A stretch of DNA of 64,000 nt from Gracilaria domingensis (taxonomy: Eukaryota; Rhodophyta; Florideophyceae; Gracilariales; Gracilariaceae): the NCBI GenBank assembly GCA_022539475.1, contig VCMS01000225.1:1-64000 (forward strand). The letters are read 5' to 3'. How positions within the stretch are numbered: the stretch's first letter is position 1; the number at the start of each line of letters is the position of its first letter. Position numbers and translations under genes: made by a program. Below are positions 1,692-22,425 of this stretch, piece after piece. A model generated the notes under the pieces. That model had not been told where the DNA came from. It saw nothing but the letters and a program-made list of their open reading frames with translations, and did no database searches.

Positions 1692-2839
1692 CTCCCCCAC
1701 TGAACGGTTGGTACGCCGCGGCAACCGACTCGAAACGAATTACTGAGAATCATACTCGTCCTGAGAAGCATCGGACGGGAGTGAAACGCCACGAGGCGAC
1801 GGGCATGGATAGCCTTCCAGGAGTAGCGGTTTCCACGAGAGACCAGAGTATAACGGGGATGAGATGCTTTGACCACCTTGCACGGTCCATAGAACTTCGA
1901 CACGAAAGAAACCCACTTCACCGTACGGTTCAGAGCTTTCCCAACAGCGACAAGGATTTCATCTCCGACATTGAAACGATGAGCATGCTTGGAGTCATCC
2001 TAGCGACTAGGCTGCCACGTAACACGCGTAGCACGCTGGGGAAGGACGGCCAATAACTCGAGACGGCGTTCGAACAGCATGGCGTCTTCAATAAAGGAAA
2101 TTGGATCCGTAGGGTGCATGCGAGGAATTGTACCGAACATTAGCTCAAACGGAGAGAATCTACCAACCAATTCGCGGCGGCGGTAGCCATAAACGACTTG
2201 ATCTAAAGCCACGTCCCACTCTGAGCCTTCGTCGACGATAGTCTTAGCAGTGGCGCGTTTGATCGTTCCAACCATTCTTTCGGCTCTACCATTCGACATC
2301 GGAGCGTACGCGAGAACCGGCTTCAGCTGAATTCCATGCTTCTTCATAAGTTCTCGAATCGAACTAGCCAGAAAAGAGGTAGCGTTGTCAGACACAATGA
2401 CACGGGGCGGACCAAAGGGAAGAATGATCTCTTTCTTCACGAAACTGAGAACAACTTCTGAGGTCGAATCTGGTGTAGCAATGGCGATAGGCCAACCGGT
2501 CACATGTTCTACTCCAATGAGGAGAAAGCGATTTCCAGAAGTGATAATAGGAAGAGGCCCGGCAAAATCCATTGAGAACGTGTCAAAGATGTTTGTCAGC
2601 GGAGCTCTCTGATCGGCTTAGTACGAGATCACTAGGGCCATCAACTGACATCCTACGCAATTCTGAACATATTTGTGAATATCATCATGAACGGTCGGCC
2701 ACCAGAAGCGATCGACTATGAAATTCCTTGTGTCGTTCTTATCCCAATGTCCGATTTCACCATGGAACATTCGAATCAACGGAACGCGGTCACGAATCGG
2801 GGGAACCAGACGAATTCCATCTTTCGTCCTGCGGAACAA
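1685..2839 (-). pseudogene. Gypsy integrase domain (broken)
   Basis: Integrase catalyses insertion of retrotransposon cDNA. Minus strand: an N-terminal zinc-binding region with 'FHGEIGHW' and 'CVGCQ' (2618-2839), then a catalytic core (2000-2572) with Asp in 'MDFAGP', Asp in 'VSDNATSF' and Glu in 'NGRAERM'. The last two are separated by 35 residues (D-35-E). A C-terminal segment with 'FYGPCKVVKASHPRYTL' (1685-1921) looks like the SH3-like tail of gypsy integrases. All three pieces share one frame and are separated by in-frame stops at 2618-2620 (TAA) and 2000-2002 (TAG). Every catalytic residue is kept, so inactivation is by stop codons only. Confidence 0.9.
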
Positions 2840-2848
2840 GAGGTCATT

Positions 2849-3629
2849 TCAAACAACAAAGTGCTTCACGGCACGCTTCGCAGCAGTGCGCAATTTCGGG
2901 TGTTTCTCATCCATCTCCAAGTTGCAAAGGTAGCGGCCGATGTTCGCGTAGTAGGGCTCGATGCCTTCAAATTCGGAGAAGCCAATCGAAGCAACCAAAT
3001 CACCTTCTTCAACGGAGGTCTCTTCTTCTTCCGGATCGAGTGCATAACGAGAGAGATCATCGGTGGCATGATTCACAGCACCAGGACGATAGACGATCTC
3101 AAATTCATACTCGGCAAGAAAATCCAACCACCTGGCAAGACGACCGTGAACATCCTTCTTCGAGAACGCATGCTTCAATGCATTGTGATCGGTCATCAAC
3201 TGGAACGGGATAGAAGAGAGCAAATAGATTCTGAACTTCTTCAAAGCGAAGATAACTGCTAGAGCTTCTTTCTCGCAGACAGAATATTTCTTCTCGGATG
3301 AATTCAAAGTCCTGCTCGCATACTAGATGGGGTGGAACATTCCATCTTCTTTCTTCTGCGCAAGAACAGCTCCGACTGCTACAGTGGATGCATCGGTTTC
3401 AACACGGAACGCACTCGAGAAATCTGGGAAGGCCAACACCGGAGGAGACGTAAGTTTCTCCTTCAACTCTTCGAATGATGACTTCATTTCCTCAGTGAAC
3501 TCTAACTTCTTGTTCCCAGAGGTCGCGGAATGGAGAACGGTAGAGGATTCAGCAAAGTGCCTGGTGAATCGGCGATAGTATCCAGCCAAGCCAAGGAAAC
3601 TGCGAAGCTCGGTTTTCGTAGTGGGAACT
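2849..3629 (-). pseudogene. Gypsy RT connection and RNase H domain (broken)
   Basis: Minus strand. It begins at the copia target-site duplication with 'TKTELRSFLGLAGYYRRF', the conserved segment after the reverse transcriptase palm in Ty3/gypsy. It continues with 'RVETDASTVAVGAVLAQ' (first RNase H Asp), then 'EKEALAVIFALKKFR' (Glu) and 'LMTDHNALKH' (Asp), followed by 'GAVNHATDDLSR'. RNase H degrades the RNA strand during reverse transcription. In-frame stops at 3323-3325 (TAG) and 2849-2851 (TGA) break it; there is no frameshift. The missing RT palm is at 22426-23881. Confidence 0.9.
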
Positions 3630-3852
3630 TGTCGAACGATCGAGACACGCAAGAGTGTTACGAGAGGTTTCCACCGACACCTGTAGCAACGTAATCAATT
3701 GCCTTGATCTACATCTTGTAAGGTGTGGCAATCTGTTTGCGTCTTCAGCATTCTACTGTCAGGGGACATTGTCCTCTGTCTGGATTTGGATCTTTATAAG
3801 ACACCGCTCTCTCTCTTTGTGAGAGAGTCCACACACATCATCATAAACAATA
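3630..3852 (+). repeat. 5' LTR of the nested copia element, first part
   Basis: Aligns with 21990-22212 of the 3' LTR. It carries a TATA-like box near 3792-3801 and a short inverted repeat of CTCTCTC/GAGAGAG just downstream. The match stops after 'aacaata', where the DNA transposon begins; the rest of the LTR resumes at 16740. Confidence 0.93.
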
Positions 3853-4312
3853 CGTCTGTGTTCTGCAAAGTGGAATATAGTCTGTTCGCTTTGGAAACTA
3901 AGCTAGTTTTGGGGCTATTTGGGGCGCGCGAGGGGGTAGCAGAGGCTGGCACTCAAAAAATTAAGAAATTTTGGAATATTAAATTCCATTTCGCGCAGTT
4001 TAGTTCTTGGGTCGCCTAGTTTTTGTAGAGGTTCTACTTCGCCGCACCACCCCATTCACTCTTTTCCGCGACCCTCTCTCAAAACTGCATTCGTGCTAGT
4101 TTGCGTTTCCATTTTTTTTTTGTTGCAATGCCAATTGCAACTCATCCCACCTCAATCATCCCATCACTTCTTCCCAGTCCACACCACCCCCGCTCTTTAC
4201 CCATTTCTCGCCCATCACGCGTTCGCATCCTCCCTCTCCGTCTCCGCCATTTTGTAGAAGTCAGGTGGACAACCCTCCCCCTTCTCGTATACCCGCCTCG
4301 CCCAAAACGGCT
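3853..4312. other. Left terminal region of the large DNA transposon
   Basis: Non-coding as far as I can see. It contains the left inverted end (3853 on), a short AT-rich stretch near 3955-3985 and the subterminal motif at 4006-4019. Confidence 0.5.
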
Positions 4313-5242
4313 TCACATCCCTCCCATCCTTCTCTCCTCCTGTCCCCTCAGAATCCCCTTCGCAGTCCGCGCCACCTCCGCCGCACTCCTAAACCCAGTC
4401 ACCACCGGATCTCCGACTCCCTCCCGCGGCACCTCCTCCACCACCTTCTTCATCTCCTTACGCCTCTTCTTCAGACGGCTCTTCACATCCCCAACCCCAC
4501 CACCCTTTGTCTTCGGTGTCACAGGAGACCCCTTCTGCACCGCCACCCTTCCCACACTTCCCTTCTCCGCCTTTCCCTCCACACCTCCTTTCGCCGTCTC
4601 TTCTTCCACCAATCTTTGCCTCTTGCCCAGCTCCTTCACCTCCTTCTCCAGCACGTCCAACCTCTCGTTCAGAACCCTATTCTCCTCCCGCAACTCTCCA
4701 ACCTCCCTTCCCGCACACTCCACTATCCCATACACATGATTTCTCATCTCCACTCCCAATACCGACAACGAATTCCGCAGGCTCGAAATCGCCTCAACCG
4801 AAACACCACTACCACCCCCACTCAGCACCACACCGCCCATTTCCGTTACAATCTCCACAATTCCATCGTCCAGTTGCTCCTTCATCACCAACCCCAACAT
4901 CCCCACCCTCGCCTTCATCTCCCCCACAAACCGCATCTCCCTGTCACCCTCTCCGCCCCCACTCTCTATCTGGTCTCCAACCTCTAACTGACTCAGATGC
5001 ACTGCACCCTTTCTCTCCATTGCGACCCCTTCCACCTCCAATTCTACACCCTTCTCCACCTCATCACCATCCCCCCTCCTCGCCTCACACTTTTTTCCTT
5101 CATCGGCCACTTCCTTCTTCTGCGACATCCGAGCAGCCGCCGTAATCACGTCCTCTTCCCGCTTTGGTGACGGCGTCGGCGGTACATCCTTCCCCTCCAA
5201 CAGCGCCAACAGCTCCTCATCCTTCACGTATCCGTTCGACAT
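4313..5242 (-). CDS. Coiled-coil protein of unknown function
   Basis: 309 codons from ATG at 5240-5242 to TGA at 4313-4315; the frame stays open to 5338, but the later Met gives the more natural start. The protein is highly charged, rich in Glu, Lys, Gly and Val. A heptad-like segment 'LREENRVLNERLDVLEKEV' (about residues 183-201) predicts a coiled coil, followed by a basic stretch 'KSRLKKRRKEMKK'. No cysteine/histidine knuckle, membrane segment or enzyme motif is visible. The coding strand is extremely purine-rich. It could be an accessory protein of the transposon, a retroelement ORF1-type nucleic-acid binder, or a captured host gene. I do not recognise the family. An uninterrupted 309 codons amid decayed neighbours suggests it was recently functional. 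Confidence 0.5.
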   Translation of the reverse strand: MSNGYVKDEELLALLEGKDVPPTPSPKREEDVITAAARMSQKKEVADEGKKCEARRGDGDEVEKGVELEVEGVAMERKGAVHLSQLEVGDQIESGGGEGDREMRFVGEMKARVGMLGLVMKEQLDDGIVEIVTEMGGVVLSGGGSGVSVEAISSLRNSLSVLGVEMRNHVYGIVECAGREVGELREENRVLNERLDVLEKEVKELGKRQRLVEEETAKGGVEGKAEKGSVGRVAVQKGSPVTPKTKGGGVGDVKSRLKKRRKEMKKVVEEVPREGVGDPVVTGFRSAAEVARTAKGILRGQEERRMGGM

Positions 5243-5444
5243 CTTCAGAAGAAGAAGTAGTAGTTGGATCGAAGTTTCCACTGCGATACAGTGCATTCGA
5301 GCTAAACTGTGCTGTCCACCCCCACTGTCCAACCACACGGGCTATATCCAGCACCATGATTGTCCCTGTTTCCCTCATCCCATTTCCCGCCAAAACATCT
5401 ACTGTACACCTCCGCACCTTCCACTATTTAAGCGCCACCCCTCT

Positions 5445-5860
5445 GTCCCCTCTTTCGCTCTCACATAATCCTCACCCACCTCGCCTCGACCGGCGATATT
5501 TTTCTCTTCCGCCATAACCTCACTCGATGATTATAGCAAAACAGGAAGATATTGCCAGTGGAGGCAAGCTAGGGACTAGTGATTGTACTTGGAGTAGCTG
5601 ACCCTCTGTCTCGACTGGAGGCATCTTCTTCTTCCGTCACATCCTGTGCGGGTTGTGACAAAAAAAGAATATGTCACCACTCGACACCGGATGGGTAACA
5701 ATGATAGCACGTAGAGTAGTTCATCCTCCCTCTCAGCGTCCACTGGGGATATATTGATGTTCTCTAACATCCTTTCCCGGTTGTGATACAAGAGAAATAC
5801 ATCTCCAATGGAGACGGAGAATATAGTCGTGATAACACGTAAAGGTAACAATGTAATAAA
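5445..5860. repeat. Diverged tandem repeats, about 130-140 bp each
   Basis: Three imperfect copies share the order: a C/T-rich start with 'ctcgac' or a variant, a 'gatat' or 'gcatc' step, 'ttctcttccg'-like sequence, 'cgggttgtga', and 'tgatagcacgtaga'-like sequence. Copies 2 and 3 are clearest (about 5595-5725 and 5730-5860); the first (from about 5445) is weaker. They lie between the coiled-coil ORF and the epimerase fragment. No coding sense is evident. Confidence 0.45.
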
Positions 5861-5882
5861 CAATAATTTTATGCTACTATCT

Positions 5883-6239
5883 CTAACCAACCTTTCGAAA
5901 ACCAGCTATGACATGAGCTGGGTTACTCGAGCCAAAGATGGCAGATCCTGCAACTAAAATGTTCGCACCGGCCTTCACTACTGCTTTCACAGTACTCAGT
6001 CCAATACCCCCATCCACCTGTATCCCTATTCTTGGGTACAACTCCCATGCATGTCGCACCTCATCAAGAACACCCTCCATAAGCGCCTGTCTTCGAAACC
6101 CTGGCTCCACCGTCATCAACAACAACATGTCTACAACTCCTTCCTTCATAAGTGCTTCTACGACCTTTATAGACGTATTCGGGCGCAACGCAACTCCAAT
6201 CTGCATTCCCATCCTTTTAATTCGGTTACATAATTCCTT
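5883..6239 (-). pseudogene. Ribulose-phosphate 3-epimerase, C-terminal fragment
   Basis: The minus-strand open frame (5883-6302) contains hallmarks of the C-terminal half of the TIM-barrel epimerase that interconverts ribulose 5-phosphate and xylulose 5-phosphate in the Calvin and pentose-phosphate pathways: 'MGMQIGVALRPNTSIKVV', 'LLMTVEPGF', 'IGIQVDGGIG' and 'AGANILVAGSAIFGSSNP'. The N-terminal half of the barrel is absent. The usual 'EPGFGGQ' is 'EPGFRRQ', removing conserved glycines. The frame ends naturally near the expected C-terminus (TAG at 5883-5885). Upstream on the same strand it runs into a perfect inverted repeat and then a fragment of another gene. It is a captured, truncated copy rather than a working enzyme. 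Confidence 0.85.
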
Positions 6240-6298
6240 CAACACCACGTTCTCCTCCTCAGTTGGTACTACCAACTGAGGAGGAGAACGTGGTGTTG
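6240..6298. repeat. Perfect inverted repeat, 28-bp arms, 3-nt loop
   Basis: Arm 6240-6267 is the exact reverse complement of 6271-6298, with ACT between. On the minus strand the 6240-6267 arm encodes residues that continue in frame into the epimerase fragment, so this arm looks native to that gene and the other arm is an inverted copy. It forms the junction between two unrelated gene fragments. Confidence 0.97.
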
Positions 6299-6582
6299 GC
6301 ACCTTTTTTACCGAAATCTTTGGCGACCGTTCGCTCTAGCTTGCGTACAAGCTCAGAGCGCCCCGTAGACACATACACACTGCACGAAGCGACACCACAC
6401 TGATCCAAGACATCGGTGACGGACGAGTGAACACTTTCAAGAATCTCGGCATACCCCAGGTAATTGCACCTGCCTAAGTTATGAAACCTCGTAACCCTGG
6501 CAGTAGGGTCCGGAGGCATGGAAGAATGCTCGGCCGCGGGAGTGACATCGGCCTGAATGGGCGTGTACGCTGGATGAACCAA
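6299..6582 (-). pseudogene. Serine palmitoyltransferase-like fragment (LCB2 type)
   Basis: The minus-strand frame contains 'FHNLGRCNYLGYAE', then 'GVASCSVYVSTGRSEL' and 'LERTVAKDFGKKGA'. These match the start of the PLP-dependent alpha-oxoamine synthase core, best the LCB2 subunit of serine palmitoyltransferase (N-L-G-S-Y-N-Y-L-G-F, then G-V-x-x-C-S, then L-E-x-x-V-A-x-F-x-G-K). That enzyme makes 3-ketosphinganine from serine and palmitoyl-CoA in the ER. Only about 75 residues are present; the PLP lysine region is absent. The fragment ends at the inverted repeat 6240-6298. Another member of the oxoamine synthase family is possible but fits less well. Confidence 0.6.
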
Positions 6583-7261
6583 CCAACCAACGGGGCATCA
6601 CGGGCGCTCCTGAGCTCTCTCCAAGACTACGCCACTATGAACATCAACTTCGGGCTATAAATGGCCGATTAGTGGCCGTAGTTATTTCCAAAATAAATTT
6701 AATTGGCCGCATAATGGGCGTGTACAGTACAGTGGCCATTTGGATGCATTGCCGTATTGTATTCTATGGATCGTTATTGGTACAAAATTTAGCGGCAGAG
6801 ATAATGATGACGAAATATGGTCTCCATCGGACCCAGATGATACGACGCAATTATGATTTGAACCAGTTTCACGTCATTTATTTCTATTTCGCTACTCTTC
6901 TCAGCTCACGTCCTGGCACGCCTGCTACCGGCGCTGGTCACAACGCTCTCTACGCCGTCCGCTGCCGCGTGCGGTGGGTGCCTGCACCGAAGGCGCGCCG
7001 CTCTTCCGCGACGCGCTGCGCGCCATCGGCTACACCGCGCTGTTCGACCTAGCGCTGCGCATTCCGTCGCTGCTGCTGGCCGACCCCGCAGCCGCCCCGC
7101 GCTTCTCCTTCAGCGCGCGCGCGCGCTGGCGCCCTCGCCGCCCATGTGCACTGCTGCCGAGTAGGCGCTCGTCGCGCTGTCGCTTTTCGTGTAGCTGAGC
7201 CATCGCGACGAGTCGCCGTTTCGCGCCGCCGCGCTGGGCGCGCTCATGCCCGCCATGCTCG
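6583..7261. other. Spacer before the reductase-like pseudogene
   Basis: AT-rich to about 6900, then abruptly GC-rich. A plus-strand open stretch at 6974-7198 has residues 'YTALFDLALRIPSLLLADPA' and could be the decayed N-terminal part of the following reductase gene, but I cannot see its expected Rossmann glycine motif. Nothing else is supported. Confidence 0.4.
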
Positions 7262-8092
7262 ACGCGCGGGGATTGGGAGGGTAACGGCGATGGAATGACG
7301 CGCGAGGAGGCGGAGGCGGAGGAATGCGAGCGCTTCCGGGAGACCTTGATAAAACTGGCCACGCGCTCGGAGAACCCGGGCGCGGCGGTGTTCGGCTGCG
7401 TGACGGACGTGAGCGACGAGCAGCAGGTGGCCCAGCTGGGGCGCTTTATGCGGCAGCACCTGCCGTCGGTGGACGCGTTCATCTGCAACGACGGCACAGT
7501 GGGCAAGCGCGCGGCGCTGCGCGACGCGCACTTGGACGACCTGCGCCGCGTGATGAACACCAACCTGCTAGGGTAGCTGCTGTGCGCGCGGGAGGAGATG
7601 CGCATTGCGGACGCGCAGCAGCGGCGCGTTCGCCTGTTTGTGATGGACGGCAGCGGCACGAGTGGCAACGCGACGGCGACGTACGCGGCGTACGGCGCGA
7701 CGAAACGTAGAGTGCCGCAGCTGGTCAAGTCGCTCAACAAGAAGTGCGCGCGCGGCTGGTGCCGCTTCCACTGTCTGTCGCCGGGCATGGTGCTGACGGA
7801 GCTGCTGCTGGGCGAGAACCGCGAGCCGGCGGCGCGGCGCGTCTTCAAGTTGCTGGCGGAGGAGCCGCGCACGGTGGCCGCGGAGCTGGTGCTGCGCGTG
7901 CACGCCGTGCTGCGGCGCGACGCGCGCAGCACGTACATCCGCTTCCTGATGGCACCGCCCGCGGCGTGGCTGCTGGCGACGGGCTTCGCGCTGGGCTGGC
8001 GGCGCCACCGCTTCTTCGACGAGCGCACGGGCGCGCGCGTGGACGTGCGCGCCGGGCGCTACAGCGTGAGTGGCGTGCGCGGCAGCGAGTAG
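7262..8092 (+). pseudogene. Chlorophyll b reductase-like SDR (NYC1/NOL family), broken
   Basis: Two plus-strand stretches in one frame (7295-7576 and 7598-8092) are split by TAG at 7574-7576. They match the short-chain dehydrogenase family, closest to NYC1/NOL, which reduces chlorophyll(ide) b in chloroplasts: 'NTNLLG', then 'VMDGSGTSGNATATYAAYG', the catalytic Y-x3-K (Tyr 7691-7693, Lys 7703-7705), 'SPGMVLTELLLGENREP' and a C-terminal 'FLMAPPAAWLL'. The NNAG motif appears as 'CNDG'. The N-terminal TGxxxGIG cofactor motif is missing. GC content is very high, unlike the flanking repeats, which fits a host origin. Start unclear. A different SDR is possible, but the 'MDGSG'-'SPGM' spacing and the tail favour NOL. 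Confidence 0.75.
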
Positions 8093-8816
8093 CGCGTGGC
8101 CGCTGGTAAGTGAATGGGCGCAACTGTACTTTGCCAGTCATTCATGGAGCGCCCGCAGCCGCGACGCGCAGTTCATGCCCGTCGGCCTGAGTTCACCGTC
8201 ACGCGCGCGCCGCCGCCGCCACCTCTCGAGTGAGCGCCTTCGCGCTCAATTCAACGCGCGGTGGAACCAACGACGTACTCGTGCATGCTCTGTATTCTGC
8301 GCGCCGCAACGCGCGCCGCGCGCCGCGCTTTCCACGCGCGCGCCGTTTGACACCATGTGCGCATGGATGTGCCAAAAACCGCGCCCCGCGCCGACCTGTT
8401 TGACGCATCATGCCATCATCTCCAGATGCCGCCGCCAGCAACGTGGCGCCCGCCGCAATTGCAACTGCTTCTCGGATCATTTTACTTGTCGCCCCGCGCG
8501 CCAGCTTGCCAACAGCCTACCACAGCGGCGCTTGCAAGCGTACCGTTGGTACCGCCTCGCGTGCGTTTCACTCGCAATTTCTTACGGTAACACTCTCACC
8601 CCGGCGCCCCCCTCCCGCCCCGTTAGCAAAGCAGGCGCACTGCGCAGCCAGTGCCCACAGCCCGCGCGTGTTCGAAGACAGCGCGAGCTGACGCGTGCGC
8701 GCAGCGCCGTGAAATTAGATCGCCGCCCCCCGCCAGTCCCTTCCCAAACAAAAGCTCCAAGTTAGTTTAAACGCAAAGAAAGGGGCTGAACAAGCCTCTC
8801 TACCAGTAAAAACCTC
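8093..8816. other. GC-rich spacer between two captured genes
   Basis: Open frames exist on both strands because GC is high, but none has recognisable motifs. It may hold the 3' region of the reductase-like gene and the 3' region of the zinc-finger gene, which converge here. Confidence 0.4.
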
Positions 8817-10461
8817 TCACGCGTGCACCTGAAACAACGTCACATCCTTGTGCGCCGATCGGTTGTGCTTTTGTTGATGTCGCTTGAGGTGCGTCTTGTA
8901 CCCGAATCTCGCCGAGCAAAACGTGCAAACGAATGGCTTCAGCTGAGAAGCACCGCCTGAATATGCCGGATCAGGTTGCCTCGCTTCTGGAAACGGTGTC
9001 CGCACTTGCGACAAGCGGGCACGTTGTGCGTGTCGCACGTGATGTACCATCTCACCTCCTTGTCCGTCGTCATTGTCCGTGACGCGTTCCCATCACCGCC
9101 CTCGCCCGCCACCCCCGCCGCCTTCACGCCCGCGCCCACAGCAGCACTAGTCGTTGTCGCCGTCGTGGCCGTTGTCTCATCGTTCCTTTGCAGCGCCTGC
9201 GCGCCCTCATTCTCTGTCGATGCCACAATATCGCTGGCAGTTATCGGCGGCGTCAATGCCTCCAGCAAGGCGCTGCTGACGTCTGTTTCGATGTTGTTCG
9301 CGCGAGCGCCCACATCATGTATGGATGGCGTAAGCGAATTGCCTGTCACTGTCGTGCTCGGGCTTGGACTGCTGCCATCGTCCGATAGCCTTACCAGCAG
9401 CGCATCCGCTTCGAGCTGTATCAGAAACTGCTGTTCCAACTGGTGGCCCGCCATCGAAGGAACAACGCCGTGTGTGTCCGCGTGGCTGTACGGTGCGTTT
9501 GCTGCGTTGCCCGCCGGTACAAGATGGTCTTCGTCAAGCGTCGCGTTTTGTGACGGCTTGTCTGCGTATTGTACCCAATGTTGTTGAGCATTGTGTAGTC
9601 TGGATTCTGCCGTCAACAGTTTCTGACAAAGTTGTACGCGTCGTACGTACAGACTGAGCAGCTGCATCGTTTCCAAGCGGTTGCCACACTCAAACTGGTA
9701 CGGGATTGGGTTTGGAGGGCTGTGGAACAGTTTGGTGCCGCGTTTGGTAAGTGGCGGTACATTTCGACGAAAAACGAGCCGCTCTGAGCAAAGGTGAACA
9801 GCCGCTTACACAGCGACAACCACGCCTCAATGAGACGTTCAGAGCTCGGCGGGCGGTGCAGCCCCAAGTCGGATGACTTGTACAAGAAGGTGTGCTCGGC
9901 GTGCGCCGGCGCCCTGTTCTTGAAGGACGGCGGACAAGCGCACGGCTCAATGCCTCGCTCACCACAAAAGTGGCACAAGGTGGGGCGCTCGCGAAGCACG
10001 ATGGTGAGCAGCGGCGACGTGAGCGGCTGGTGCGGTGGCAGCAGTTCGTAGCAGATGATATCAGTGGAAAGCACCAGGCGATTGTGGTGCGCAGTGGACG
10101 GCTTGTGCAGGCGTCTGCACGCGATGATGAGACTGTCGTCGTGCATCCATGCAAACTCGACGAGCTCGAGATGGTCGACGCGCAGGTCGGCGGCGAAGTT
10201 GCGCTTGCAGGGGCGGCTGGAAAGGCGGTGGGAATGCAGGACGGAGTCGCGCACGCGGGCGAGCGCGTGGTGCTCCTTCTTGTTGTAGAGGTTTCCGACG
10301 GCGATGCCGTCGTAGACGTGCTGCATGAGTGCCGTCGATGAATGCACGCCACATCGACGGTGCACAGCTCTGCGGCGCGAGACAGCCGCGCGCCGAGTGT
10401 GCCGCGCACGGGAACGCGCGCCGTCGCGCGCGTCAGCGAGGCGCTCCAGCTCGAACAGCAT
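8817..10461 (-). pseudogene. C2H2 zinc-finger gene, frameshifted
   Basis: Minus strand. The C-terminal part has two C2H2 fingers: 'CRKCGHRFQKRGNLIRHI' in one frame and 'CTFCSARFGYKTHLKRHQQ' (then KH) in the next, so a frameshift near 8950 separates them. Upstream in the frame 8939-9676 is a long Ala/Thr/Asp-rich linker. Further upstream (9613-10461) another frame carries 'LCHFCGERGIEPCACPPSF', a Cys-rich motif I cannot place, and 'LRVDHLELVEFAWMHDDSL'. Together these suggest one zinc-finger protein, probably a nuclear DNA-binding regulator, broken by at least two frameshifts. That the upstream part belongs to the same gene is inferred from strand, spacing and composition. The N-terminus is uncertain. 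Confidence 0.55.
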
Positions 10462-10539
10462 GCGCTACGTTTTGGCTGGCGTTGCGTGCGGTGTGTGTTT
10501 AGGAGGTCTGTAGACGCTACCAGAATGAGGCGAAAACGA

Positions 10540-10832
10540 GCCCGCGGGCGGGGGGGTCGGTCTTGTTAGGGTAGGTACCCTAACACGACCGGACCCCCCC
10601 GCCCGCGGGCATGAAATCGCACATTTTTGAAAAAATCGTCCAAAACGTGCCCGCGGGCGGGGGGGTCCGTTCGTGTTAGGGTAGCTACCCTAACACGAAC
10701 GGACCCCCCCGCCCGCGGGCATAAAAAAGCACATTTTTTAAAAAACCGGCCAAAACGTGCCCGCGGACGGGGGGGTGCGGTTGTGTTAGGGTAGCCGCCC
10801 TAACACAACCGATCCCCCCCACGCCGGCGGGC
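10540..10832. repeat. Three tandem long palindromes, 109-110-bp period
   Basis: Hairpin 1 is 10540-10610 (nearly perfect), hairpin 2 is 10649-10720 (a perfect 72-bp palindrome, 36-bp arms, no spacer), hairpin 3 is 10759-10832 (imperfect). Each arm starts GCCCGCGG, has a run of seven G or C, a variable stem segment and TTAGGG/CCCTAA next to the centre. Between hairpins are A/T-rich spacers that resemble each other ('gcacattttt...aaaacgt'). The variable stem differs between copies (GGTC/GACC, CGTTCG/CGAACG, CGGTTG/CAACCG), yet both arms change together. The array lies just upstream of the zinc-finger pseudogene. Confidence 0.95.
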
Positions 10833-12463
10833 ACGTTCTGGTCACATTTTGGCACCATGCCGAGACCTCCCAAAAACCCTTCCTCAACACTTCTTGCACT
10901 CATTACCATGCACCCGCTCGCGAACACGTTGGCACCGCTGTCTACGTGGATTGGCGGGATGGCAAGAAGCTGTACATTAATTAGAGTATATCTTGAGTAT
11001 TAGGAGCGCTTCAAAACGCATGAATGGAGAGCGCTACCATTGTTCGCATAAATCTACGTCCACCAAAACTCTTTGCTAGAAGGAACTTTTTGAGGCCATT
11101 CTGTAGCGTTTTGATACCTCCCAAAACACAATCGGTTGCATTCCTTGCAACGATTTTGTTGCGAGCTCAGTACAGATCTTTTTGAGATAAATCAACTAGT
11201 TTTTTCATCCAATTGATGCTCAACCAGTAACATAATACGCGACCTTATTACAATTTGTGTAGTTTCTGACACACTACACTATTTAAACTGATCAAAGTGG
11301 CGAAGAGACGTACCACCAAAGCGTGCCAACACCCTCACGCACAAAAGTGGTAATGCGCAGGGATGAGATGCATAAAAAAACAGAGTGACGACAGTATGTA
11401 GCTACTTAAATACTCGGCACCACTTTTTCCCGTGAAGATACAAATTCTACCGATGATGAAGATAAGGTATTATCTAATAGCATGAGCGCTTCCGCTCTAG
11501 CGTTCAATGTATATATCTGAATCTAATTTGTTCGTTGTGACGGTCTGACAAACAGCGATGAAGGCCTCCAACGACCATATAATACCGGATTTATAGGGGT
11601 AATAGAGCGAGCTCTCTGCGAAACACCATAAATAACTAAATGGAGTCCTGATAGGCTAACTACTACATGATTTTCAGAGGTTTAGAGAACGGGGTTTGTA
11701 GCAGCTCTTATATGCTAAATTCATTCAGTATAAAACTCTATGAAACAGAATGGAGACGAGAGTCGTCGCGGAAAGCAAAACAGATTGTAGGCATGAAAAC
11801 CGTTCAGCCCTGTGTGCTTGAGCTGGTAGCACATGATTATCGTTCCAATTTTGAAATCGTATCGCTTCACCTTCCGTTAACAAAGCCTGTCACCAACAAT
11901 ACAAGAGAAGACATTAATCGACGTGTTGCGGAGATGCCGTAAAAGGCTGCCAATGGTGTTAGTTTTTCTTCTGTTGAGAGTCGAGATAGAACCTCAGACT
12001 CCCAGTTCTAGAGCTATGAATTCCTGCCCACGACTTTGTCGAGGAGCGTTAAAGGCTTCAATCTGCCACCGAAGGGACGAAATAGAGTTTTCATTACATC
12101 ATGCGCCACGATTGCACCTATAACTAGTCCAAGCGACGCCCGAGTACTGAGAGAAAACTGTTTTGATTGAAGCCCTGTCCTGCGCTCCCTATCAGATTTC
12201 AAAGAATTCCTTTACGAAAGGAAAACCATGTCAAGGTTTTTGTATGCTTTGGCCTCCATCATTCAAAGGGGATCTGCCTTTTTGAAGGTTCCATTCAGTT
12301 ACCTGTCTTTCTTCGACGTGGACAAATCTATATGTAAACCTTTGGCAAAAAAGTTGCATTGCATTGGGGATAGATTTGCGTTTGTAAAGATGCTGATTTG
12401 AGTACGTATCGTTCGAAATAAACGTGACGTGGATGATTCTATTGCAGTGAGTAGCGTCTCTGA
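10833..12463. other. AT-rich spacer inside the large transposon
   Basis: Short open frames only (for example 11667-11942, plus), none with motifs I recognise. No hairpin comparable to the neighbouring array was noticed. It could be non-coding filler or very decayed sequence. Confidence 0.4.
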
Positions 12464-14197
12464 CTAGAGGTTTTCGATTTCTGGAGTATTAATCAGCTTC
12501 AATTTGTCTGGATGCAAGTTGCGTAACTGTTCGAAGAGAGCTCTCCTTGTTCCCAACAGACTGCATAGAAACAACCTCTGGATCAATCCTACCGTCAAGG
12601 GGGTTTCGATGAACGACGGAATAAGAGATATGTAATCAGAACGCTTGAGAGTACCGTCTGAGATATACTCTCCCTCGCAAGACATATACTTCTTCCTGCC
12701 TCGTCTTTCTTTGCATATTCTAGAATAACTGAGTATGTATCTCTAACGCTTTTGGTTTGGTCTTGAGAGGGTCCAGTGAATGAAGTAAGAATACTACTGC
12801 ATAAAGATGAGAGAGGGGCCTCGAATCTATGACAGAAGCTCCCCGTTTTGGTCCCGTGAAGAGTTAACAGAATGTCTTTAGCCTCAAAAGTATCCGCACG
12901 AAAACTTGCAGAGAATGGCACACTCGACTTAGTTTGTCTTCGCCGATGAACTGAAAACTTTCTGCGTGAGATTTATAATGGGCTCCAGGACTTGACGAAG
13001 AGATTCTTGAAGGATTTGCATCCTGGACTCGCGTAGAGACCTGCTAGAAACGAATGGCATTGCGTCTGCTTCAGATGCGGAAACCTTGATCAGTGTGGTA
13101 GGGAAGTATGCCACTACTGTGAGGTCATCACGGATGCACTTACGGCGTAGCTCGTCGGAGAAGTTGAGAAATATGAGGTGAAGAGGATAGGCGGTAACCG
13201 ATGTTTGCTTTAGAGTTGTTGAAGACTTATCGGTGTATACCTGCAGAAGACCTACGAAAGATTCACTGTAACTTATTTCTTGGGAGTACCACACTATTCT
13301 ACTATCCAACGAGCCCATGACCATTTCCTTAAGTTTTGAGGTGGCGTCTCTTGCGAGAGAGCCGGACATGGGGTGAGATATTTTCGTGGAGTGGGTCTGA
13401 GGTATAGGGTGGAAGAATGTGTTTTCGTTGTTAGCCAACTGGAGCTGTTTCAAAAGTGTCTGAACGAGGTCTCTCGTGTAGAGGGTGGCGCTGAACTTAC
13501 ATCTTTCTGGCGAGACAGTTCTTCGATTGAAACCGTTCTTTGAGGCGTATCGTTCGATAATGGCGTTCTTCAGTTCTGTACAGCGCTTGGAACTTGTTAT
13601 GGTCTCGTTGAATCGCTTTTGCGAGAATCGCGGGTCCCGAATTAGCCCAATTAGCTCGTCAGCCTCACGATGACCAAGGTTGGAAGCTACTGAAGCCAGA
13701 CAAACCGTGAGATAATCCATATGCAAATCACCGAGGGCCTCCTCAGAAGGCACTGGGCGGGAACTGCTTCCGTGTTCTCGCTCTAATGACGCGGGACCCG
13801 GGGAAGGAGAAACACAATGCGAAGTGTCCGGAATGAGAGGGGCGCATGGAGTGGGGTCGACGATGTCCTCGGACACCGGAGGCTCGGGAAGGCCACAAGG
13901 GGCAGTGACCGTTTCGGAAGATGCGGGCGCGGGCGCGGAAAGCTTGAGACGCTTGCTTCTCCGAATGGGCCGGCTATTGTCGTCTTCCAGCGCTGCTTTC
14001 AGACGAAACGGGCAATGGTTGACATGCTGTTGAAGAGATAAGACTCCTCGGCGAGTAACGAAGGGGCACCCACGCTTCTTATGTGTACAGTAGTAGACCA
14101 TGGGAAGAAGAAATGAACGAGAAACGACGACAAAGACTGCAAAGGAAGGTCGTCCGAAGGGAGAAGGAGGTCGAGCGACAGTCAATATCGACGTCAT
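12464..14197 (-). pseudogene. Tnp2-like transposase, N-terminal half (CACTA/Plavaka type)
   Basis: The minus-strand ORF 12929-14197 (422 residues) starts at 14197. It has an N-terminal finger-like motif 'CTHKKRGCPFVTRRGVLSLQ' with a later His/Cys ('HVNHCPF'), a low-complexity Pro/Ser linker, and then the segment 'VYTDKSSTTLKQTSVTAYPL' with 'RDDLTVVAYFPTTLIKV'. This matches the D-K-T...Y-P...N...R...Y-L-P block that leads into the catalytic region of Tnp2/Plavaka transposases. The frame stops at 12929, and further minus-strand fragments at 12595-12921 and 12464-12685 are in other frames. The C-terminal catalytic half seen in the 43378-44787 copy is absent. It is probably the element's own decayed transposase; mobilisation in trans is possible. 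Confidence 0.65.
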
Positions 14198-14780
14198 GCT
14201 CAGAACGGAGAATATATTTTGAGTTTAAATCACGTGCTTTCGTTCAAAAAGAAACGTAGGTACACGTCGACCTCAACACAAGGGTGTACTTCTCGTATTA
14301 TCTACCACTGGTTATACACTTGTGGTTTCGCAACGTTGTACGCTGTACAACTGTCCAATCTCGCACAGAAAAATAAATCTCCTCCCTCCGCCGCCGCCGC
14401 GCCTCCGGCGTCCGGCCTACCGTTACCGGCGTGACCCGTGCCATTTACCGTCGCGCGTTCTACTCCGCCGGAGTAGAGCGCGAGGATGTGGATGGCACGG
14501 ATCACGAGCCGCGCTCCGTCGTACCTTTCTCCGCCCTTGCACTTGCTACGAAGTAGAGTACGGGGAGGAGAATGAAGTACGCTTCATGTCCGCCTCATGG
14601 ATGCCTCTATAAAGCGGACATCTTCCGTATCTCAAGGATGTATTCCGTGCAGGCTTTTCGTACGTGCTTCCATATCCTTCTACGTATCTCTTTTCTAAAC
14701 TAACCAATCTTAACCACGTCTCTTCGCGCTCTGGGACAGGTAAACGGCAGAAAAAAGGGTTTGGGTTACTTTTGCGAGTC
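14198..14780. other. Spacer with an imperfect fold-back
   Basis: Between the transposase start and the tandem repeats. A fold-back spans 14436-14500: outer arms CCGTGCCAT and ATGGCACGG, inner arms 14454-14466 and 14470-14482 (one mismatch) around a GCC loop. No gene is supported. Confidence 0.6.
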
Positions 14781-16115
14781 ACTAGGTCCCTCGACTTTTC
14801 TAGCGCAACGTTTCTGTTTTGCTCTATCAATGGTACGTTCCACCTCATTTCGAATGTATCCAACGGAGCATTGACTAACTTATGGATACTTTATGCTTGC
14901 GTATACAGGTAGACGACCAATTTCATTTCGTCTCTCAAGATCGATGTCTGACTGTTCGGGATAGGCGATTCTGGTACTTGGTTGGGACATAGTCTGCTCT
15001 CTCGTTTATCGCATCTTGCGGTATGTTCGCTGCATGGGCATTCTTGGTGTCCTTGCTTGTGAGTTCTCGCTTCGACACCTTTCGCGCTTTAGGATGAATG
15101 GATGATTGCTCATCTAACCGATCATCGGTTAGATTATCAACAATCCATTCATCGTAAAGCGAGAAGGGATGATCTCTTTCCTTCTTCTTCTTCTTTTTGC
15201 GAGTTACTAGGTCCCTCGAATTTTCTAGCGCAACGTTTCTGTTTTGCTTTATCAATGGTACGTTCCATCGCATTTCAAATGTATCCAACCGAGCATTGAC
15301 TAATTTATGGATACTTTCTCCTTGCGTATACAGGTAAACGACCAATTTCATTTCGTCTCTCAAGATCGATGTCTGACTGTTAGTCTCTCAAGATCGATGT
15401 CTGACTGTTCGGGATAGGCGATTCTGGTGCTTGGTTGGGACATATGCTGCTCTTTCGTTTATCGCATCTTGCGGTATGTTTGCTGCATGGGCATTCTTGG
15501 TGTCCTTGCTTGTGAGTTCTCGCTTCGGGACCTTTCGCGTTTTACGATGATGGTGGGCTGGTAATCTAAGCGATCTCTTTCCTTCTTCTTCTTCCTTTTC
15601 CGAGTTACTAGGTCCCTCGACTTTTCTAGCGCAACGTTTCTGTTTTGTTTTATCAATGGTACGTTCCATCGCATTTCAAATGTATCCAACGGAGCATTGA
15701 CTAACTTATGGATACTTTCTGCTTGTGTATACAGGTAAACGACCAATTTCATTTCGTCTCTCAAGATCGATGTCTGACTGTTCGGGATAGGCGATTCTGG
15801 TGCTTGGTTGGGACATATGCTAATCTTTCGTTTATCGCATCTTGCGGTATGTTTGCTGCATGGGCATTCTTGGTGCCCTTGCTTGTGAGTTCTCGCTTCG
15901 ACACCTTTCGCGCTTTACGATGATGGTGGGCTGGTAATCTAACCGATCCCTTTCCTTCTTCTTCTTCCGTTTGCGAGTTACTAGGTCCCTCGACTTTTCT
16001 AGCGCAACGTTTCTGTTTTGTTTTATCAATTGTACGTTCCATCGCATTTCAAATGTATCCAACAGATCTTTGACTAACTTATGGATACTTTCTGCTTGCG
16101 TATAGAGGTAAACGA
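14781..16115. repeat. Tandem repeats, units of about 425, 401 and 373 bp
   Basis: The start 'actaggtccctcga' recurs at 14781, 15206, 15607 and 15980. Each unit then carries 'ctagcgcaacgtttctgtt', 'gtatccaac', 'cttatggatac', 'cgatgtctgactgttcggg' and 'gcatgggcattcttgg' in the same order; the fourth unit is partial. Units differ by point changes and by a variable C/T-rich spacer. Open frames in this array on both strands are by-products of the repeat. It lies 0.6-2 kb from the right end of the large transposon, where other DNA transposons keep subterminal repeats. Confidence 0.93.
15093..15153. repeat. Imperfect inverted repeat inside tandem unit 1
   Basis: The arm starting GATGAATGGAT (15093 on) pairs with ATCCATTCATC (ending 15153), with ATCTAACCGAT/ATCGGTTAGAT near the centre. 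Later units keep only half of it ('aatctaaccgatc'), so it arose by inverted duplication within one unit. Confidence 0.85.
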
Positions 16116-16156
16116 ATTTTGATGCGGACGTAGCTCACGAGTTGCAGGTGCAGGTT

Positions 16157-16305
16157 CCTCAAGTAGGGAACCATGCATCTGGGCATGGTTCCCTACATGA
16201 GGAACGGAGAAGATGAGGCGCGCAGCGCCTCATCCTCTCGAGGTGCGTATTTGTTCTACCGATACCGCACTATGGTGGAGGTGCCCTCTGCGGCATCTGC
16301 CGCAG
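16157..16305. repeat. Cluster of three short hairpins near the right end
   Basis: 16157-16202: 20-bp arms with one mismatch (core GTAGGGAACCATGC). 16212-16234: arms GATGAGGCGC and GCGCCTCATC with GCA loop. 16288-16305: arms CTGCGGCA and TGCCGCAG with a 2-nt loop. Confidence 0.88.
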
Positions 16306-16737
16306 ATTGCGCCTACACCCGCTTCATCATGGGGAAATGGTATATGTAATATAGCGAAGTAGTGGTTAGCAAAAACGGTCGATAGAAGAATAGATACGAA
16401 TAAAACGGTATGATTTCATAATGGACATCATCTGTACTAGCAACAGTATTCCATGCGTTGCAGGGTATCATTCCGCAGAAGGTATCGTGTAATGTGCACC
16501 TTAATGGAAACTGAACCTAGACTTCGCGAAATACCGTTCAGGTAGCCCTCGACTAAAGAACTAGCACGAGTGGAAAACCCACCAGTATTTACTGCACAGC
16601 GATTCTGGACGACCCAAGCAATTATCTTCAAATTTTGAAATAATTGATCTCGATATTTTTTCAAAAAATTTACTGGATGAGCCTTGCCACTTTCTGGACG
16701 ACCCTCGCCAAAAACTAGCATCTGCAAGAGACAGACG
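16306..16737. other. Right terminal region of the large DNA transposon
   Basis: Non-coding. It contains the inverted subterminal motif at 16615-16628, a second partial copy of 'ttctggacgaccc' near 16690, and the right inverted end finishing at 16737. Confidence 0.6.
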
Positions 16738-18082: not shown

Positions 18083-18094
18083 CAGTCATTACGT

Positions 18095-21000
18095 TTGTCA
18101 CAAGCTATGAGAGAATCTCCGGAGAAAAGTGAGCTAGAAGTCTTCAGACTTTTCTGTCACAAACTGTCACAGATACAGAAGCAACTTGACCCAGCCTATC
18201 GGACAGACAACTTTTTGAGGGACCAGCTTATCATATCAGCTGATACTACTCAGATAGCGCAATCACTCCGCGAACGCGTGCCGGCTACTTCGCAAGAAGC
18301 TAGGAGTCGAATTGCGACCTTTCTGTCCAGTGAACCGAGATCAGCGGAGGCCTTCTTTTCATCCCACGACAATGGTTCTGGCAGTTTGCATGCTGTCCAT
18401 TACAGTCTCGGAAACCGATACGGTGGTGGCGCGAGAAAAATGTTGAAGGGACAAGGAAGAAGGAGAAAGACGAATGGATATCAGAGAAGACTTTCCTCCA
18501 AGTGGCTCTCAGGGCGCAAAGGATGCTATGTATGCGGTGAGAATCATCTCGCCCGAACTAGGCACAGTGCTCAAGAGATTCGAGCTGCTCTTGACAGGAT
18601 GAAGAATAGCAAGCCCTCTGCTTATGTTACAGTTGAGGATCTTGCGAATATCGTGAACGAGCTCACTACAGCAGAAGATAGGGAAGACGACGAAGATGAG
18701 GTTGATTTTGTGTATTCCAGTGACAGCGACGCAGAAAGTAACGAAGAGGAAACCGCTCATATTGTCGAGGATGAAATGAAGCAGTATGGAGTAGATGAAG
18801 TTTATCTTTCGAACGCATCATTTGTACATGGACTTGGATTTCAGAGAGACTTGGAAACCGCATTGGCTGTGATGGAGAAGGAACTCGGAAAAGGAGAACT
18901 CGATAGTTTTGATGGCATTTACATCGATACTTGTGCCAACAAGTCTTCCGTAATGTCTTATTCTCAATACAAGGCATACTGCAGACAATTTGATGTCCCA
19001 TGTCAGATTGAGAGAAACAATACCAGGAGACTTCGAGGGTTGGGGGGAAACCGTCAATCGATTGGAACTGCGACGATCCCTATTCCCTTTAAGGATCTGA
19101 ATCTTGTTATTGACGTGACATTCCAGATAGTTGAAGACAAGATCCCCACACTTCTAAGTATGAAAGACATGGTGGACAACGGTTTAGAAATTAGCCTACA
19201 GCGAAGAGAGGTTATGTTCAAACATCTAAGGCAACCGTTGACCTTCAAGAACTACTTCTTGATCCACAACTGGAAGCGTGGAGACCTTAGTTTTTCTCTT
19301 TACACCGAGTCGGAAATGAGAAAACTGCATCGTGTATTCGGGCATCCCAGTGTTCAAGCGTTTACGAACCTTCTCAAGCGCGCTAGACCTAGTGAAATGA
19401 ATCGAGAAGTTCGTGAAGCAATTATAAATCTCACAAAGGAATGTATAACTTGCACTTTGAATTCCTCGAGACCGAGAAGATTCAAGGTCACTGTGGGTAC
19501 GGATAACCAACGCTTCAATCACATTGTGGCTGTGGACATTATGTACATAAATGGAAAGCCAATTCTTCATGCAGTGGATGAAGCCACCCATTTCAACGCT
19601 GCTGCTTTCTTAAAGCGCGTCAAATCTGCTGACGTATGGAAAGCTCTACTGCGCTGCTGGTCAAGACTCTACTTGGGACCACCAGATTTTCTCCGTATTG
19701 ACCAAGGGAGCAACTTCGTGTCGAAGGAGTTCATAGACCACGCTGATGCAGAAGGTATTACTATTCTCCCGTCGCCGATTGAATCCCCATCAACCATGTC
19801 CCACGTTGAAAGATACCACGCACCACTGCGCGTTGCGTATTCCAAGATTAGGGCTTCATTGCCTCGCAGTACGGAAACAGACGCGGATTGTCTTCAGATG
19901 GCAATCAAGTCTGTCAACGATACAGTGGGACCCGAAGGTCTTTGCCCAACGCTTCTGGTATTTGGGTCCATATCCCGTCCTGCCAGGCGTACTCCAGCAG
20001 AAACGCAACTGCAAAGAGCAAGAGCGATAGACCAAGGCATAGATGCAGTACGGAAAGAGCAAGCTCGTAGGAAAGTTGCCTTTGCTTTGAAACATGACAA
20101 AGGACCCAAGGCAGGTGAGAAAAGCAAGGAACTCTCTACTCTCCCGGCTGGTGCTCCTGTGTACGTCTATCGTGATTCATCTAAGAGTTGGGAGGGACCA
20201 TTCAATTTCATTCATCTTGATGTAGAAACGGTCGTAGTTCAGCTTCCTCACGGGAGAAGGACTTTCCGTTCAAACGTAGTGAAAGCCGCTACTGGTTCAA
20301 CATTCAGTCCTGGAGGTGAGCAAAAGGGTACGGGTGAACTCGGCAAAAAGAAAGTGGAGGAAGGGGTAATGTTCTCGTCTAACGACGTTCTCACTGCTTT
20401 GTTTGGCGAGCCTACATGTACTACTGATTTGTCAAATTCGAGTGACGTCCATGACTTTAAGAATTCCAGAGAGAAAGAATTGAAAGGGTTACTCGCTCGT
20501 GGAACATTCGAAGAAGTGGATGTGGATTCTATTCCTGATGGAACGAGAATATATGGGTCGCGATGGGTCGATGTATTGAAGACTGTAGACGGAAAGGTCA
20601 CGGAGAAATCCAGATTGGTAGCCCAAAACTACCGCGATAGAGGTGCTCTTGATATCGCCACTAAGTCTCCGACTGTCAGTCGTCTCGCTCAGCGAATTGC
20701 ATTTGTGTTATCTGCAATGACTCCGGGACATTCATCGTACATACGTGATATCTCTCAAGCGTATATACAATCGGAGTCACTGATTGAAAGGAAGATCTAT
20801 CTCCGCCCACCATCTGAGCTCGGACTCTCGCCCCGAAAGGTATTGCGAGTAATGAAACCACTCTATGGTATCCCTGAAAGTGGGTTGCATTGGTTTCTTA
20901 CATATCATGGTCACCACATTCATAAGCTCAATATGACACCTACAAGAGGCGATACTTGCTTACTGTACAAGAGAAATGAGAAGGAGCTAGAAGGAGTGAC

Positions 21001-21989: not shown

Positions 21990-22425
21990 TGTAGAACGAT
22001 CGAGACACGCAAGAGTGTTACGAGAGGTTTCCACCGACACCTGTAGCAACGTAATCAATTGCCTTGATCTACATCTTGTAAGGTGTGGCAATCTGTTTGC
22101 GTCTACAGCATTCTACTCTCAGAGGACATTGTCCTCTGTCTGGATTTGGATCTTTATAAGACACCGCTCTCTCTCTTTGTGAGAGAGTCCACACACATCA
22201 TCATTAACAATATATTTCTTCTGCTTCTTGAAAGCTATATTGTCGTTTCCACGACTCTTATTGTCAAGCAGCCTTTCGGAGGCCGCCACTGACCGCAAGC
22301 AGCTCTTTGAGGGCCGCCACTGCATAGAGGCTCAGCCTTTTGAAGGCCGGACGCCTACTCCACTCTCCCTACCATCTCTGTCCCTACCAGCGCAGTGTAC
22401 TCTGTTTTGGTTCTGGGATTCGACA
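21990..22425 (+). repeat. 3' LTR of the nested copia element
   Basis: 436 bp, TGTAGA...TCGACA, preceded by the purine-rich GAAAGAGAAAACTTGGAG. A TATA-like box lies at about 22152-22161. It shows the undisturbed sequence across the site where the DNA transposon entered the 5' LTR. Confidence 0.95.

Follow-up and report, generated by a model that had tools for sequence, protein, structure and literature searches.

A transposed Plavaka-type element of Gracilaria domingensis with cargo probably captured from a host locus by break repair

The first 64,000 nucleotides of contig VCMS01000225.1 of the red alga Gracilaria domingensis (assembly GCA_022539475.1; this whole stretch is called the window) contain a long terminal repeat (LTR) interrupted by a 12.9-kb element at positions 3853-16737. 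The insertion is precise. When the flanks are joined without one of the two TA dinucleotides that border the element, 437 bp align to the sister LTR with 5 mismatches and no gaps (98.9%), and this ungapped match bears out the claim of a preliminary description of this DNA that the block entered the LTR as one unit. The element ends in CGTCTGT...ACAGACG (at 3853 and 16737) and encloses a transposase remnant together with pieces of host genes. Its features are given below; the letters A to F are subfamily labels coined in this analysis, C numbers designate element copies or loci, and C3 stands for a host locus on the contig of that name (L083). Target-site duplication is abbreviated TSD, terminal inverted repeat TIR, open reading frame ORF and short-chain dehydrogenase/reductase SDR.

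3851..3852, left copy of the TSD (TA), a single TA in the empty sister LTR
3853..3869 (+), left TIR, 13/17 positions matching
3853..6239 (+), left part of B/D type; over 3853-6198 class B copies C8, C9 and C84 match at 96-100%
4316..5341 (-), 342-aa ORF read as coiled-coil, common to classes B and D (ORF scan)
5886..6268 (-), epimerase C-terminal fragment (PF00834, 92.6 bits, profile 89-198)
6240..6298, perfect palindrome (29-nt arms, 1-nt spacer) where D-type and E-type sequence meet
6297..7268 (+), segment common to class E (E29 1413-2382, 93.9%)
6298..6507 (-), serine palmitoyltransferase (LCB2)-like fragment (PDB LCB2, E=0.002, weak)
7268..7364 (+), 97-bp filler from the C3 CCHC zinc-knuckle gene (L083:6771-6867, 95.9%)
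7363..10324, host block, contiguous in C3 (94.9% to L083:2496-5466 in 2978 aligned columns)
7363..8089 (+), SDR fragment without the N-terminal part (PF00106), in-frame stop at 7574-7576
8942..10324 (-), piece of the region of a host 670-aa ORF; the window copy has a weak C2H2-like motif
10345..10462 (+), short segment present, of ten copies, only in class E (93%) and in C54 (class A)
10529..10833, GC-rich ~110-bp tandem repeats of near-perfect palindromes; the copies compared have related repeats here
10851..13200 (+), stretch most similar to class C (98%), with class E at 78-86%
11984..14224 (-), remnant of a Plavaka transposase (PF18759), broken by 6 stops and the loss of ~925 bp of the C63 frame
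14746..16155, long direct repeats with a spacing of 373-425 bp (repeat scan)
16154..16205, hairpin with 23-nt arms, 96% complementary (repeat scan)
16607..16704 (+), three subterminal GGRYGASCC repeats (16607, 16675, 16696; motif scan)
16721..16737 (-), right TIR; the last 35 bp have 558 matches in the genome
16738..16739, right copy of the TSD (TA), likewise a single TA in the empty sister LTR

The match of 13 of 17 positions between the inverted ends is borne out by a recount, and these ends recur throughout the genome searched (77.9 Mb in 680 contigs). With up to 3 mismatches allowed, a 30-bp pattern from the left end has 576 matches and a 35-bp pattern from the right end 558, while neither of the reversed patterns has any. 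Among the matches to 248-bp end queries, the best 40 of 648 for one end and the best 40 of 611 for the other are each 99-100% identical. The recurrence check proposed in the preliminary description thus found the ends many times over, and with differing cargo. The inverted subterminal motif reported there for both ends needs correction: GGRYGASCC occurs only in the last 131 bp of the window element. Copy C8 has one additional internal site on the opposite strand. The copies compared fall into the following classes.

Class A: window, C302, C54 and C157; 98.6-99.4% identical to the window (C302 over the main match)
Class B: C8, C9, C27b, C84, C63 and C9b; C9b also with HAD-hydrolase-like pieces
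Class C: C64, C27a and C6; C64 with a 15-cis-phytoene-desaturase-like piece (PF01593, TIGR02731, PDB 5mog E=1.2e-35)
Class D: C18; full-length epimerase frame, right end beyond the stretch examined
Class E: C29; serine palmitoyltransferase-like piece and ECM29-like HEAT pieces
Class F: C60; HECT and ankyrin pieces

Fifteen complete two-ended copies, the window copy among them, were compared for their TSD; they measure 6.4-14.1 kb with a mean of ~11.3 kb. Thirteen have a perfect 2-bp TSD (TA, AA, CC, TA, AC, GG, GT, AC, AG, AT, AT, AA, AT), and the four class A copies have TA, AG, AT and AT within flanks that differ. Since the sequence of the TSD varies between copies, TA is no fixed target and the duplication comprises 2 bp without fixed sequence; the TA seen earlier on both sides is indeed present, but its role as a target cannot stand. 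Tc1/mariner and similar elements have a fixed TA target, and superfamilies of this kind are ruled out by the varying TSD together with the Plavaka-type transposase described below. That the block might be an artefact of assembly or of segmental duplication could be argued from a repeat-rich assembly in 680 contigs. However, the empty site is clean, distinct 2-bp TSDs flank 13 of the 15 copies and the ends number in the hundreds, which makes such an artefact scarcely credible.

The frame at 12932-14224 (-) of the window matches the Plavaka profile PF18759 with 28.3 bits (cut-off 26.3), so that the remnant formerly called Tnp2-like is instead a Plavaka remnant. Against the same cut-off, an open transposase frame of 1049 aa in copy C63 reaches 67.7 bits, and C9b has an open frame of 1051 aa. 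In seven class A and class C copies compared, ~925 bp of the C63 frame are absent and 5-6 stops are present; elements of these classes would need transposase supplied from elsewhere. At least 123 PF18759 matches were scored in the genome, out of 672 candidates, many of them within an open frame 1100 or 1110 aa long; at C23, C49 and C60 frames of 1100 aa are found ~2.4-3.6 kb away from right ends. The transposase contains SPCHRC and then EPLHNLH, candidates for the CxxC and H(3-4)H motifs that the CMCT clade has between the second catalytic D and the last E; their order agrees with that clade, and the spacing of H in EPLHNLH differs. Judged from profile and motifs, the family is Plavaka-type (CMCT clade), a relative of CACTA and not CACTA itself. 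An assignment to CACTA fails on the termini, which differ, and on the transposase; CACTA/EnSpm is ruled out as there are neither CAC..GTG-type termini nor a 3-bp TSD. The selection ratio of the transposase is 0.66-0.77 in 6-13 copies, too few to conclude. A second group of Plavaka transposases, with frames of 1110 aa and higher profile scores (e.g. C12:68428-69198), probably represents another family in the same genome.

The host part of the cargo has an identifiable parental copy. Locus C3 contains an SDR gene (frame 1921-3222, PF00106, 111.5 bits), a 670-aa ORF on the opposite strand (4218-6227), a CCHC zinc-knuckle gene (6754-7536) and a KH-domain gene. The 2.97-kb host block in the element consists of the 3′ part of the SDR gene (+) and much of the adjacent ORF (-), and because the host frames extend past both edges of the block we read the direction of capture as being from host to element. 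The 97-bp filler to its left is inverted relative to the main block and matches sequence 1.3 kb further along C3. A TIR element thus encloses host sequence whose parental copy can be named, as in Pack-TYPE and Pack-TIR elements, and the proposal that the transposon carries host-gene cargo is confirmed by location of the donor. The four unrelated host genes of the preliminary description are reduced, however, in that the SDR piece (supported as such by PF00106) and the ORF with the C2H2-like motif form one contiguous host block, while the epimerase and serine palmitoyltransferase-like pieces, counted as independent, are both common to other subfamilies. The C2H2 finger itself, with 16.5 bits, stays under the cut-off of 25.2. 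Differences between host and window are distributed evenly over codon positions, with 12/14/11 in the SDR part (727 bases) and 12/15/14 in the ORF part (1249 bases), which points to drift of the captured coding pieces as passengers. Outside both coding parts there are 50 differences in 995 bases; overall divergence is 3.3% in the ORF part and 5.0-5.1% elsewhere in the block.

On both sides the host block is embedded in sequence of other subfamilies. Left of it, the match to the class B copies runs up to 6198, and 6199-6239 is covered, of ten copies compared, only by class A copy C54 and class D copy C18. There follows the palindrome at 6240-6298, which repeats epimerase sequence in inverted orientation, is identical in all four class A copies examined and may represent a fold-back repair scar. 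The segment 6297-7268 was found, among the same ten copies, only in class E and in C54. It contains the piece labelled serine palmitoyltransferase, a label that remains weak (LCB2 at E=0.002; NCBIfam alpha-oxoamine synthases, best E 9e-5; no Pfam match); its donor was not found among 40 DNA matches scored (94-100%), the context of each not being checked. To the right of the host block, the short segment at 10345-10462 has at least 30 further genomic matches, and another exchange between subfamilies would have its breakpoint within ~10463-10850. The idea that the entire right half is E-type was dropped, as ~10851-13200 is closest to class C.

The four internal junctions occur with 0-1 mismatches in 4/4 class A copies examined and are absent, at up to 4 mismatches and on both strands, from 12 other element copies and from C3. 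By these alignments the window's class A element combines, as a mosaic, a B/D-type left part bearing the epimerase fragment, E-type sequence on either side of the host block, a class C-like right stretch with the broken transposase, and C3 sequence, and the junctions common to all four copies, which lie at different sites, indicate a single capture followed by transposition. The preliminary description had allowed that pieces inside the element might each have been inserted later, with ends of their own, and other copies do carry inserts, such as one of 6.3 kb in C18. Such a history is very improbable for class A, where no element ends are present at the aligned junctions and all four copies have the same junctions.

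We conclude, with a probability of about 0.88, that the block belongs to a large Plavaka-type family as a non-autonomous member that has transposed, and that its C3 cargo was captured, most likely by break repair. A break would have arisen inside an element, and its repair would have proceeded by template switching, with C3 and further element copies as the alternative templates. The inverted filler, the short shared letters where pieces meet and the fold-back palindrome would be traces of this. Short shared letters are indeed present in the alignments of the capture junctions. The resulting chimera would have retained the ends and subterminal repeats and hence could be moved by transposase made elsewhere. 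Gap filling and FoSTeST with microhomology are proposed for animal Pack-TIRs in PMC8277862. For Pack-CACTA and other Pack-TYPE elements, PMC8903248 favours a different route, tandem insertion and remobilisation, in which elements on either side of host genes leave together as one larger element; the density of CGTCTGT-family ends in the genome would suit it. However, the host block is bordered on both sides by element interior without ends and accompanied by an inverted 97-bp piece from 1.3 kb along C3, neither of which follows from simple co-excision. Co-excision is possible but unlikely here.

Several points weigh against capture by break repair into a Plavaka-type element. The repair process is read from its scars. 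Copies for the TSD comparison were chosen by exact-end match and by class, not at random, and two of the 15 have mismatched TSDs (C84, AA/TA; C9b, AA/GA). For the ~20 bp that follow the host block on its right (10325-10344) we could find no source. The donor search covered 8.4 kb of C3 and matches of at least 80 bp at E<=1e-5, and within this scope the window element gave no further match and E29 no match at all. Lastly, the 1049-aa transposase has no relative at E<=0.001 among 7988 candidates scored from 5.8 billion proteins, so the superfamily assignment depends on one Pfam profile and the motifs.

Distribution of the cargo was followed with segments of the window. An SDR query (6880-8100) is found near full length at 8 loci and in part at C195 and the donor C3; the remaining 30 matches listed contain only its first 388-389 bases at 93-94%, and these bases are also present in the single class E copy examined. 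A second query (8900-10460) matches the same ten loci and, among those listed, 30 further sites with its last 116 bases. Class A cargo is accordingly seen at eight loci among the matches listed, four of which were checked for ends and TSD. The class C block gave at least 44 matches, 32 of nearly full query length at 96-100%. Were most of the 558 right ends part of complete elements of this kind, the family would account for ~8% of the genome; this figure is rough and an upper limit, since many ends may be truncated.

The epimerase calls for separate consideration. At the place of the window's C-terminal fragment, class D has a full-length ribulose-phosphate 3-epimerase frame, and the genome contains at least 151 Ribul_P_3_epim matches. 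We analysed 39 near-full-length element-type copies, shorter ones being excluded from the counts; the profile match is stop-free in 26 of them, and the first batch was picked stop-free, which if anything biases against stops. Private changes amount to 92 synonymous, 266 non-synonymous and 16 stops, where 90.2, 267.7 and 16.1 are expected from the observed mutation types; changes found in 2-5 copies number 33, 76 and 5 (expected 28.7, 81.1 and 4.2). These counts fit neutrality, so that the full-length epimerase appears to drift nearly neutrally among copies. The element epimerase is 57.6% identical to a host enzyme at C17, which we take to be the cytosolic type, and 40.9% identical to a second host type with an N-terminal extension at C320, presumably plastid. 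A further epimerase locus (C187:153400-155000, L074) resembles the C320 type, has three internal stops and is perhaps a pseudogene. In a phylogenetic tree the element epimerases are monophyletic (100/100), their stem measuring 1.12 changes per column, and they fall with moderate support (85/89) into a group that includes Gracilaria, Gracilariopsis and Chondrus. Relative to the host gene, differences by codon position are 0.30/0.20/0.62, which speaks for old constraint, and the epimerase was probably constrained for much of its divergence, be it in the element or in the donor.

It could be argued from this divergence (the 57.6% identity, the long stem and the codon-position pattern), from the 26 stop-free copies and from a pooled pairwise pN/pS of 0.74 that selection on the transposon lineage kept the class D epimerase, which would then not be a passive capture. 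We consider this doubtful: the private changes and those in 2-5 copies agree with the neutral expectation, the value of 0.74 ignores mutation types, and the constraint may predate capture or belong to an unsampled donor. Equally tentative is a broader scheme, in which the transposase-encoding members of this red-algal Plavaka lineage would form a long-lived mobile unit of several genes with a long-selected epimerase, from which capturing derivatives were repeatedly assembled by break repair. The parts of such a unit would be the coiled-coil-like protein, the full-length epimerase, an orphan 415-aa protein, a protein of 483-502 aa and the transposase.

The other ORFs offer few clues. The 342-aa ORF has no Pfam match over cut-off and a selection ratio of 0.77 (10 copies, too few to conclude). 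The orphan 415-aa ORF, carried by elements of classes B and D (L018:2718-3962, many copies), is stop-free in 85 of 101 scored copies. Its sole database relative is a hypothetical Gracilaria domingensis protein (95% over 55% of the query); it has no Pfam or NCBIfam match over cut-off and no solved relative (best E 0.78), and structure prediction gave a mean pLDDT of 33 and no usable fold. The fold may be Rossmann- or ketopantoate-reductase-like. Its selection ratio is 0.88 (5 copies, too few to conclude). An ORF of 483 aa in C18 (L081:4875-6323), 502 aa in C9b, is without Pfam match in the class B versions scanned and has a ratio of 0.90 (6 copies, again too few). The 6.3-kb insert of C18 (element positions ~8198-14508; L081, L082) contains several ORFs, four of which were scanned without any Pfam match.

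Between both LTRs of the interrupted retrotransposon lies a frame of 1285 aa (18083-21940, +) which is integrase- and reverse-transcriptase-like as read from its translation, and the retrotransposon looks young. It is flanked by reverse-transcriptase-like pieces at 3323-3694 (-) and 22355-23887 (-), which we label as presumably Gypsy-like. Perhaps the LTR element had inserted in a Gypsy-like element, in which case there are three levels of nesting.

The family has its closest counterpart in Plavaka elements of fungi, as described in PMC12730594. These are alike in the profile match and in the order of candidate CxxC and H motifs; PlavakaA has a 2-bp TSD as in Gracilaria, and the 2 bp in 13/15 copies accord with the 2 or 3 bp given for Plavaka (CMCT clade). 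Some fungal elements likewise carry an extra gene, a TET/JBP dioxygenase, a domain absent from the ORFs scanned here. By contrast, the termini of PlavakaA and PlavakaB are TGT..ACA or CATCA..TGATG, and CGTCTGT..ACAGACG fits neither lineage; the Gracilaria family also differs in its red algal host and in a variable cargo of host-gene pieces.

Pack-TYPE elements, especially Pack-CACTA, are similar in that TIR elements carry coding DNA, also from more than one locus (PMC8903248). Like Pack-TYPE and Pack-TIR elements, the window copy is a carrier without working transposase, and carrier transposition is seen in the four class A copies at different sites. In contrast to Pack-CACTA, however, the Gracilaria family is Plavaka-type, its copies examined measure 6.4-14.1 kb, its cargo is passed on by exchange between subfamilies, and copies with an open transposase frame bear cargo as well. 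For animal Pack-TIRs, PMC8277862 likewise proposes microhomology or template switching, with multiple copies arising by later transposition; multicopy cases are few there (3/23 in frog), whereas the Gracilaria cargo classes that were counted are multicopy.

Gene capture by TIR transposons is already known. A literature search of titles and abstract openings, with few subscription papers, showed, among the papers listed, no case of capture by Plavaka or in red algae. With the present element the phenomenon reaches a Plavaka-type lineage and, probably, the red algae. For annotation, element epimerases could be mistaken for host genes, and the relative of the 415-aa ORF already stands in the database as a hypothetical protein of this alga. 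The case is unusually legible in that the donor, element sequence on both sides, a templated filler, a palindrome and four sister copies are all found in one genome. Since the ends number in the hundreds and the cargo falls into several classes, counts within this one compact genome could test break repair and co-excision against each other.

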